This document shows positions 12,449 to 31,438 of a stretch of DNA of 64,000 bases, in pieces. The translations under genes were made by a program, and so were the position numbers. Within the stretch, counting starts at the first letter, position 1. Each line of letters begins with the position of its first letter. Source of the stretch: Pseudorhodoplanes sinuspersici (GTDB lineage Bacteria; Pseudomonadota; Alphaproteobacteria; Rhizobiales; Xanthobacteraceae); assembly GCF_002119765.1 (NCBI RefSeq), contig NZ_CP021112.1, positions 800,501-864,500 of the forward strand, written 5' to 3'. A model generated the notes under the pieces. That model had not been told where the DNA came from, searched no databases, and worked only from the letters and a program-made list of their open reading frames with translations.

Positions 12449-12559
12449 GGCCAAAGGGGTAGCCGAGCGGCTGGGATGCATCAACTCACCCGCGCCTCGC
12501 GCGGGCACCACGCCGGGAAACAGCACACAACGAAAGAAAAAGCGCGGAGCCGCGATGGC

Positions 12560-12708
12560 CGTCGGAATTTTCGACCCCGGGAACCTACAAAAGTAGGTGG
12601 GCGCCATATGTCCGAATCCACGGACCCGGCCAGGGACAGCTCCCTTCAGGATCGTAAGGCCCCGGGAGTATGATGTTTCCAGTCGCACCCCGCAGCCCCG
12701 CTTGGGCA
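12560..12708 (-). ncRNA. ssrS: 6S RNA (ssrS), regulator of RNA polymerase
   Basis: Minus-strand gene of about 150 bases between zapA and the GNAT/fau genes, the standard position of 6S RNA in proteobacteria. Seen directly: GGGUGC near the 5' end can pair with GCGCCC (about 12600) near the 3' end; an apical CUCCC/GGGAG stem surrounds the centre; and a small CCUAC-UUUU-GUAGG hairpin lies in the 3' part, with a further GC-rich segment CCCGGGG after it. This matches the long, interrupted rod expected of 6S RNA, which binds sigma70 holoenzyme and mimics open-promoter DNA. Ends are estimated from a -10-like CATACT just upstream; a covariance search would settle them. Confidence 0.72.
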
Positions 12709-30175: not shown

Positions 30176-30691
30176 TCAGCGGCCCTCGAAGGCCGCCTTG
30201 AGCAGGCCGAGCTGATGCTCGACCGGGTTATTGGTGTTCTGCGGCGCGTCCGCCGGTGCGTGGATCGTCGCATCCAGCCGCCGCACCTGGTCGGCCAGGA
30301 CGAGCGAGCGGCGGATCAGATCCGCCAGCGTGTCCGGCAGCAAGGCCAATGTTTCTTCGTCGGCCGAAAATGTCGGCGACAACTTTACCTTCGTTTTTTC
30401 CTGATTGACCTGCGAGAGCGACATCTCGCCCTCTTTCACCGCACGATGCAGCAACAGCCACGAAGCGAGCTGCATCAGCCGCGTGGTCAGGCGCATGCTT
30501 TCGGTCGCATAGGTCAGCGCCCCGCTGCGCGGCAAGGCCTTGGATTCCCTGCGGCCTGGCCCATCGAGATAAGCGGCCGTTTCCTCGACCAGCGCCATGC
30601 CGTCGCGGAACAATTGCGAAAAGGCCTGGGAGCCCGCAAGCTTCTCGCGAAATGAAATCGCGCCGCTGTTCTGAGCGGTAAATTCCGACAT
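30176..30691 (-). CDS. rcdA: RcdA family (DUF1465) cell-cycle adaptor
   Basis: A 171-residue DUF1465 protein, the family of Caulobacter RcdA, which works with CpdR and PopA to deliver CtrA and other regulators to the ClpXP protease at the G1-S transition. Family segments are visible: FSQLFRDGMALVEETAAYLD, TYATESMRLTTRLMQLASWL, and the C-terminal linker NNPVEHQLGLLKAAF. Start ATG 30689-30691 (a GTG precedes it). It ends at the shared terminator with rpmE. A perfect CtrA-type box lies 257 bases upstream, associated with a candidate small RNA rather than with rcdA itself. Confidence 0.88.
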   Translation of the reverse strand: MSEFTAQNSGAISFREKLAGSQAFSQLFRDGMALVEETAAYLDGPGRRESKALPRSGALTYATESMRLTTRLMQLASWLLLHRAVKEGEMSLSQVNQEKTKVKLSPTFSADEETLALLPDTLADLIRRSLVLADQVRRLDATIHAPADAPQNTNNPVEHQLGLLKAAFEGR

Positions 30692-30828
30692 CACGTTTTA
30701 CGCCTCACCCGTTAGTAGCCAGAGCATAGTCGCCGCAGGGCGAGCGGGTAAAGCAAATGAGCAGCTAATTTGAATACATAGTTGCCAGACCTCCCGTGCA
30801 GAGCACGCGATGTGTTCCGATCTGGGAC

Positions 30829-30856
30829 AAAAAAGAGCCGCCGTTTCCGGCGGCTC
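30829..30856 (-). terminator. intrinsic terminator reading leftward
   Basis: GAGCCGCC / GGCGGCTC (8 base pairs, 6-base loop, 30835-30856) followed on the minus strand by TTTTTT. No protein gene ends near it on that strand: DUF1192 stops almost 400 bases earlier. It therefore most simply ends a small RNA. Confidence 0.85.
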
Positions 30857-30935
30857 GAAGTGGATAACAGGGAGGCGTCAAACAGAGTGGACAGGAGCCA
30901 CTCGATGTCCACAGAAGATGGACAATCAGAGTCAT
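30829..30935 (-). ncRNA. candidate small RNA with CtrA-type promoter box and anti-Shine-Dalgarno loops
   Basis: On the minus strand, reading leftward: a hairpin UGUCCA/UGGACA (30906-30924), a second hairpin GAGUGG/CCACUC whose loop is CUCCUGU (30885-30903), a single-stranded CGCCUCCCUG, then an intrinsic terminator ending in six U (30829-30856). CUCCU and CCUCCC are complements of Shine-Dalgarno sequences, as exposed in several alphaproteobacterial regulatory RNAs. A perfect TTAA-N7-TTAA box lies immediately upstream. The reading frame that crosses this stretch (30712-31167, minus) has no protein character. The 5' end is a guess. The 552-base gap between rcdA and DUF1192 holds this unit, the box and three repeats. 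Confidence 0.55.
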
Positions 30936-30947
30936 AGTTGGGAAAGC

Positions 30948-30962
30948 TTAAGTTTGAGTTAA
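30948..30962 (-). promoter_or_regulatory. perfect CtrA-type box TTAA-N7-TTAA
   Basis: Both half-sites are exact with a 7-base spacer. CtrA, the master cell-cycle regulator of alphaproteobacteria, recognises TTAA-N7-TTAA. The site sits about 20-30 bases before the first hairpin of the candidate small RNA, where an activator or -35 overlap would be expected. I saw no other full site in the gene-free parts of the window. Confidence 0.65.
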
Positions 30963-30991
30963 ATGAAAAATGCTTCGTAAAACATTGCAAC

Positions 30992-31078
30992 GCAACGTTG
31001 GTGTCCTGTCTCCAACGCTTCGTATCCCTTGCTGCGACGTCCGGGAAGCGTTGGAGACAAAAGGACACCAACAACGTT
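30992..31078. repeat. long inverted repeat, copy 1
   Basis: Arms of about 28 bases, GTTGGTGTCCT.GTCTCCAACGCTTC on the left and its complement on the right (31046-31078), separated by 25 bases. The arms match except for a 3-base AAA insertion in the right arm and a short shift at the outer end. As RNA from either strand it would form a very stable hairpin. Confidence 0.8.
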
Positions 31079-31087
31079 TTGATTCTG

Positions 31088-31160
31088 GTGCGGTTTTGTT
31101 TCTGACGTTCCGATAAAGAGATTGCCGCGAGGGTTGATCGGAACGTCAGAAACACCGCAC
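31088..31160. repeat. long inverted repeat, copy 2
   Basis: Left arm GTGCGGTTTTGTTTCTGACG..TTCCGAT (31088-31114) and right arm 31136-31160 are complementary with a single 3-base TTT insertion, here in the left arm. Same size, spacing and indel type as copy 1, and the same TTTTGTYT core, so the two look like members of one family. Confidence 0.8.
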
Positions 31161-31180
31161 GGAGCAATGTGCGGCCACTA

Positions 31181-31243: not shown

Positions 31244-31438
31244 TCACTTCTTGAAAAACTGATCCGCACTGGCGCGCGACGATTGTTTTTTCGCGATATC
31301 AGCTTCCAGGCGCGCGATTTCCTCGCGCAGCAGCGCAATGCGCTCATTCAGCTCGGTGACTGAAATCAGCGACAAATCCTGACCGATCTCATGCTGGATT
31401 TTTCTTTTCGGTCGATCGTCATCGTCGAAAACAGCCAT
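31244..31438 (-). CDS. DUF1192 family small protein
   Basis: A 64-residue protein, MAVFDDDDRPKRKIQHEIGQ at its N-terminus, then LSLISVTELNERIALLREEI and a short coiled coil ending in QSSRASADQFFKK. This is the DUF1192 signature, widespread in alphaproteobacteria and of unknown role. No membrane segment. It faces away from the quinone oxidoreductase gene; the 120 bases between must hold both promoters. Confidence 0.9.
   Translation of the reverse strand: MAVFDDDDRPKRKIQHEIGQDLSLISVTELNERIALLREEIARLEADIAKKQSSRASADQFFKK

Follow-up and report, generated by a model that had tools for sequence, protein, structure and literature searches.

The gap between rcdA and a DUF1192 gene in Pseudorhodoplanes sinuspersici raises three connected questions: which RNA is encoded there, what switches it on, and on which mRNA it acts. 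The original prediction, made for the 64,000-nucleotide stretch of DNA that was analysed (hereafter the window), described a perfect TTAA-N7-TTAA box followed on the minus strand by two hairpins, a CCUCCC run and a terminator with six U, lying between rcdA and a DUF1192 gene, and proposed a CtrA-controlled small RNA (sRNA) possibly linked to RcdA. All of these elements and both flanking genes are present at the positions listed here, rcdA being the gene of a DUF1465 protein, the family known as RcdA. A weak third hairpin, with CCUCCC in its loop, is an extra element that was absent from the prediction.

30829-30925, minus strand: sRNA of family BjrC1505, placed by the Rfam match and the promoter geometry; its end is the U run
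30948-30962: CtrA-type box TTAA-N7-TTAA of the putative sRNA promoter (TTAAGTTTGAGTTAA; minus-strand reading TTAACTCAAACTTAA), kept at comparable spacing in other genomes
30931-30936, minus strand: -10-like element TATGAC, assigned from the sequence, 11 nt after the box
30906-30924, minus strand: hairpin 1, from folding and covariation
30885-30903, minus strand: hairpin 2, GAGUGG-CUCCUGU-CCACUC, from folding and covariation
30865-30882, minus strand: near-invariant core UUUGACGCCUCCCUGUUA, the proposed mRNA-pairing region, from conservation and folding
30870-30875, minus strand: CCUCCC, loop of the weak hairpin 3, from folding
30829-30856, minus strand: intrinsic terminator, with a covarying stem (30835-30856) and then six U
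30696-30713, minus strand: proposed target site of the sRNA, covering the ribosome-binding site of rcdA (AACGGGUGAGGCGUAAAA), from predicted pairing
30176-30691, minus strand: rcdA (Pfam DUF1465), the next gene downstream of the sRNA
31244-31438, minus strand: DUF1192 gene, the upstream neighbour of the sRNA

Two other features of the window were observed. Two long imperfect palindromes lie side by side upstream of the sRNA promoter, before the DUF1192 gene is reached (30975-31170; fold z -10.2), and since ~160 nt of this sequence recur as an 85% copy elsewhere in the same genome (L249:10463-10625), they are probably a REP-like repeat. A 6S RNA (RF00013, 69.7 bits) is found at 12543-12701 on the minus strand.

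Family, distribution and structure of the RNA

The covariance-model search of the region gives a full-length match to the Rfam family RF02356 (BjrC1505) at 30828-30969 on the minus strand, with 114.7 bits against a threshold of 50 and an E value of 1.5e-21. The alignment spans model positions 1-140, the structure and the terminator are the same as those of the family, and it is the one match in the whole 5.97-Mb genome. Because the sRNA is a full-length RF02356 member it is not a new RNA, and in this sense the claim of a new system does not hold; what looks new, judging from the sequence, is the wiring of the sRNA, namely its CtrA-type promoter box. The BjrC RNAs were reportedly first described in 2012. 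In the literature searched no function was found for RF02356 or BjrC1505: RF02356 is mentioned nowhere, and BjrC1505 by a single paper, which lists the name in a table. Nor did this search, of the main text of mostly open-access papers, turn up a CtrA-controlled RNA beside rcdA.

In an order-wide sample the Rfam model gives a match in 245 of 297 genomes, 212 of them above the threshold, and a more sensitive rescan of 36 of these genomes returned the same 22 positives while the 14 negatives stayed negative. The sRNA is found in 16 of 18 genomes from the genus and family to which the window belongs and in 120 of the 151 genomes of the family of G136, a genome whose copy resembles, by eye, the Mesorhizobium copy. 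Class-wide, 25 of the 240 sampled genomes have a match (12 above the threshold), and none was obtained in 14 control genomes, a set that includes Caulobacter vibrioides. A sequence-pattern scan of named genomes found at least 118 matching stretches, and among the matches listed are Bradyrhizobium, Afipia, Nitrobacter, Rhodopseudomonas, Mesorhizobium, Phyllobacterium, Bosea, Roseibium, Hyphomicrobium and Sneathiella.

The region 30829-30945 folds well below its shuffles (z -5.89; 0 of 200 as low). For 22 diverse sequences (alignment A1, drawn from 28, with L105, L106, L112, L114, L142 and L231 omitted as hard to align) RNAalifold gives a structure of 21 pairs, 13 of which have changes on both sides. 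In the same structure 93.9% of the cells are paired and 33 are double-change cells, each value being reached by 0 of 500 shuffles; the number of covarying pairs is likewise equalled by 0 of 500, and when the partners are slid by 1-3 columns only 2-7 double-change pairs remain. The compensatory changes sit in hairpin 1, in hairpin 2 and in the terminator, and a further such pair is found at the base of hairpin 3. The predicted stems thus covary in relatives, and the terminator is conserved. A small protein encoded inside the RNA is unlikely given the varying lengths of the RNA, 86-105 nt across the 28 sequences.

An anti-Shine-Dalgarno run lies within the most conserved stretch, UUGACG-CCUCCC-UGUUA, and in 18 of 27 folded sequences (the 28 without L112) the core UUGACG-CCUCCC-UGUUAA forms a weak hairpin whose loop is CCUCCC. 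Hairpin 3 lies beyond covariation testing because this core hardly varies. CUCCUGU, the loop of hairpin 2 that the original prediction stressed, varies between lineages; the near-invariant part is GACGCCUCCCUGUU.

Membership in the suhB/MmgR family (RF00519) was rejected, with 22.3 bits against a threshold of 41. By eye, the two families have in common CCUCCCU, an AGACUU-like linker and a GCCGC terminator. The genome of P. sinuspersici encodes two mmgR/suhB RNAs (L237, C1:3405812-3405886, and L238, 5030356-5030431), in which this CCUCCCU-linker-GCCGC terminator module is shared with the BjrC1505 sRNA at a level below the family threshold.

The box upstream of the RNA

The second question regards what switches the RNA on. 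TTAAGTTTGAGTTAA is the sole exact TTAA-N7-TTAA in the window (shuffle mean 0.03), and there are five exact boxes in 464 kb of the same genome. Three exact boxes were also seen within 5 kb of each other in this genome (L243:5671, 9008 and 10538), perhaps a CtrA-controlled cluster.

In other genomes the box was scored as the best match in a 70-nt window. Among loci selected by the family model at least 7 of 8 positions are matched in 106 of 110, as compared with 2 of 110 in the adjacent upstream control window and 12.6% in dinucleotide shuffles; this set is biased because the RF02356 model covers the box. It comprises 110 of 117 loci, as L026, L079, L110 and L113 are without an anchor and L090, L093 and L098 were cut or not placed. 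The box could also be left out of the selection by choosing loci by the 3' part of the RNA (pattern GACGCCTCCCTGT-N5-15-AGCCGC), and here a match of at least 7 of 8 was found in 109 of 114 loci and in 4 of 114 adjacent control windows; 114 of 118 loci were counted, four being too near an end. The TTAA-N7-TTAA box is thus conserved in relatives by either selection, and these comparisons strongly support its assignment to the BjrC1505 RNA. Three of the five misses (L148, L154 and L159, whose records are titled Bacilliculturomica, Bacteroidetes and Spirochaetales) seem to be chance hits inside genes, and the promoter consensus omits them.

The consensus set holds only loci with a box of at least 7 of 8 positions (209, dereplicated to 149) and gives TTAAC-N5-RTTAAGCTTT. 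The A at the third position is found in 120 of 149 promoters, and so is the C after the first half-site, which served only as a tie-breaker; GC-TTT after the second half-site, which was unscored, is represented by G in 100, C in 88 and T in 86, 114 and 116 of the 149. The three positions 11-13 nt beyond the box are T, A and T in 89, 107 and 92 of 149 promoters, respectively, and a strict TATNAN-like pattern 10-11 nt after the box in only 54, so that the -10-like element is a loose one. In 116 of 149 promoters the start of hairpin 1 lies 23-25 nt past the box. This spacing would place the start of the sRNA near 30923-30926 and the centre of the box near -31, in the -35 position. The -10-like element shares its last letters with a GANTC site (30929-30933), the methylation motif of CcrM.

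The first ~45 positions of the RF02356 model match the promoter with its CtrA box, and many of their 5' pairs are broken in the window. Based on the promoter geometry, these positions would therefore be promoter, which suggests that the family boundary is too long and that the model begins inside the promoter.

CtrA is encoded in the genome of P. sinuspersici (C1:3144913-3145584) with 95% identity to a CtrA query sequence, and it is encoded in 18 of 18 genomes searched. The part of the predicted CtrA control that concerns the box stands, as the box is conserved order-wide in sequence and spacing; that CtrA itself binds there we infer. One may argue that the box binds another regulator or that CtrA represses the sRNA, since the direction of regulation is itself deduced and the first half-site reads TTTAC, not TTAAC, in Bradyrhizobium-type relatives. 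We find this very improbable: the box stands in the -35 place at a similar spacing, and two letters of the CtrA consensus that is reported in the accessible sections of two papers (PMC3616915, PMC12403871), a third-position A and a C following the first half-site, each occur in 120 of the 149 promoters.

The neighbouring rcdA gene and the predicted pairing

The third question is on which mRNA the sRNA acts, and the gene next to it is the obvious place to look. In 107 of 117 loci rcdA follows the sRNA on the same strand, at ~460 nt or less in all but two of them, and DUF1192 was found in 88 of the 117. Over the 297 genomes of the order, 265 of which have rcdA, both genes are present in 238, neither in 25, only rcdA in 27 and only the sRNA in 7 (Fisher p 5e-16, uncorrected for kinship). 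The seven sRNA-only genomes are G017, G050, G120, G121, G131, G150 and G198, of which G050 scores under the family threshold (42.3 bits). Because these rcdA-less genomes keep the sRNA, rcdA cannot be its sole target, and the sRNA does not depend on rcdA.

Such a layout may also belong to a cis-acting leader of rcdA, in which the CtrA promoter would drive rcdA and the hairpins and the terminator would attenuate rcdA or mask its ribosome-binding site in the read-through mRNA. The common strand and the short distance agree with a leader, as does the result that in the window a further CtrA-type box is missing before rcdA, the best match there having 5 of 8 positions; in other species CtrA motifs and several starts upstream of rcdA are reported in the available portions of PMC3616915 and PMC10469942. 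We nevertheless regard a leader as unlikely, since the terminator is conserved and covarying, the sRNA is retained in the seven genomes that lack rcdA, and a separate box of at least 7 of 8 positions lies between the terminator and rcdA in 59 of 199 loci (4.3% in shuffles), 45 of the 59 at 110-170 nt before the rcdA start. These second boxes, together with the sRNA in rcdA-less genomes, make the sRNA and rcdA look like separate units in many genomes.

The pairing between the core and the rcdA ribosome-binding site was first noticed by eye and the tests were made afterwards. Among 400 ORF start regions in 464 kb of the same genome rcdA ranks first, with -25.8 as compared with -25.3 for the second and a median of -12.3, and when opening energies are included 0 of 384 controls are as low. 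GAGGCGU stands before rcdA in 11 of 20 dereplicated leaders of the window's family (the same-family list with the duplicate L001 removed) and GGCGU in 17 of 20, whereas 10 and 53, respectively, of the 1363 control starts have them. In these counts the leaders of related genomes are not independent of each other, the rcdA starts were called by a script and some will be wrong, and the controls are long ORFs chosen by a script, some of which are not genes. Among the 384 control starts of the window's own genome GAGGCGU is found in one.

Outside the window's family and named near relatives, GAGGCGU is found in 8 and GGCGU in 29 of 172 rcdA leaders. Over 206 loci the rcdA median is -14.6 versus -11.6 for 767 controls, a shift to lower energy; 22 of the 206 leaders beat the 5th percentile of the controls and 0 the 1st. 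With a slightly shifted core the window's rcdA stands at 1.2% of the 767 controls, which come from many genomes. When Shine-Dalgarno strength is matched and a fixed core is used, the median percentile of rcdA is 0.28 (195 dereplicated leaders); the 31-row 'family' list of this run also holds L010, L143, L166, L185 and L195, whose family membership is unconfirmed. The predicted pairing is strong here and weak order-wide, and thus rcdA is a good candidate and a likely target in the window's lineage and not an order-wide constant. Of the proposed link to RcdA, the synteny and the top-ranked pairing here and in relatives hold, but the pairing is not conserved across the order.

The ctrA mRNA is not supported as a target, as in 18 genomes its start regions give only -11.4 to -14.8 kcal/mol. 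When the 250 nt upstream of ctrA are included, single genomes reach lower values, -20.5 in the window's genome, at the far edge, and -19.6 in L327, with no shared position; the energies for L312, L313, L319 and L322 are void, their anchors lying outside the sRNA. When 31 genomes were screened with a strict complement-plus-ATG pattern, 26 had scattered matches and the genome of the window had none.

These results bear on whether rcdA is the real target at all. The sRNA could be a CtrA-driven anti-Shine-Dalgarno RNA whose real targets are other mRNAs, the rcdA match reflecting an ordinary G-rich ribosome-binding site together with common ancestry. The core is near-invariant even where the rcdA pairing is lost, the sRNA persists where rcdA is missing, the second start in the genome pairs nearly as well, and ctrA leaders also look conserved in the family, so that conserved leaders are not unusual. 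On the other hand, rcdA is first among the 400 starts, no control is as low with opening energies, and the crude pattern screen of 31 genomes names no competing target. We give this explanation a real but minor share of our confidence.

Proposed regulation and comparison with known RNAs

The explanation that we favor, with somewhat better than even confidence, is a CtrA-activated trans-acting sRNA that blocks translation, with rcdA as its best-supported target here and in near relatives, by which CtrA would protect itself. The locus would encode a trans-acting sRNA of ~97 nt of the BjrC1505 family, and phosphorylated CtrA, bound at the box centred ~31 nt upstream of the start, would activate the promoter in place of a -35 element. 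The sRNA is predicted to fold into three strong stems and one weak hairpin that displays the CCUCCC loop; this loop would pair with G-rich ribosome-binding sites and block translation. As the pairing would cover the rcdA ribosome-binding site, rcdA translation would fall, and less RcdA would mean less CtrA proteolysis. RcdA is described as an adaptor in CtrA proteolysis in Caulobacter, in the available part of PMC8959179, and because of this role CtrA would lower its own destruction.

A broader option, which we hold as doubtful, is that the CtrA-sRNA-RcdA loop is ancient and order-wide, a two-gene cassette in which rcdA was joined or replaced by other targets in some lineages. In such a loop the sRNA would silence the adaptor that feeds CtrA to ClpXP, and the positive feedback would sharpen CtrA accumulation.

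The nearest known case is CcnA of Caulobacter crescentus, for which the accessible text of PMC8959179 describes a ncRNA whose promoter has a CtrA box and whose C-rich loop pairs with the G-rich 5' regions of cell-cycle mRNAs, features similar to those proposed here. Unlike the sRNA of the window, CcnA is 182 nt long, lies at the replication origin and targets ctrA and gcrA (same source). EcpR1 of Sinorhizobium meliloti is, like the present RNA, a Rhizobiales-wide trans-sRNA, acting on cell-cycle genes (PMC4414408, PMC7143759, PMC12403871, as far as these texts were available). It differs in being located by rpmG, downstream of pleD-divK (PMC4414408, PMC12403871), and in having a sigma70 promoter, induction by ppGpp and dnaA and gcrA as targets (PMC4414408, PMC7143759, PMC12403871). 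Identity with EcpR1 was rejected, as the neighbours here are DUF1192 and rcdA.

If the favored explanation is right, CtrA would be the switch and rcdA a plausible first target of a widespread and so far unexplained sRNA. This sRNA would also be the second independent case, after CcnA, of a CtrA-controlled RNA that acts back on CtrA, and a CtrA motif assigned to rcdA elsewhere, in other species, may instead be that of the BjrC1505 sRNA.
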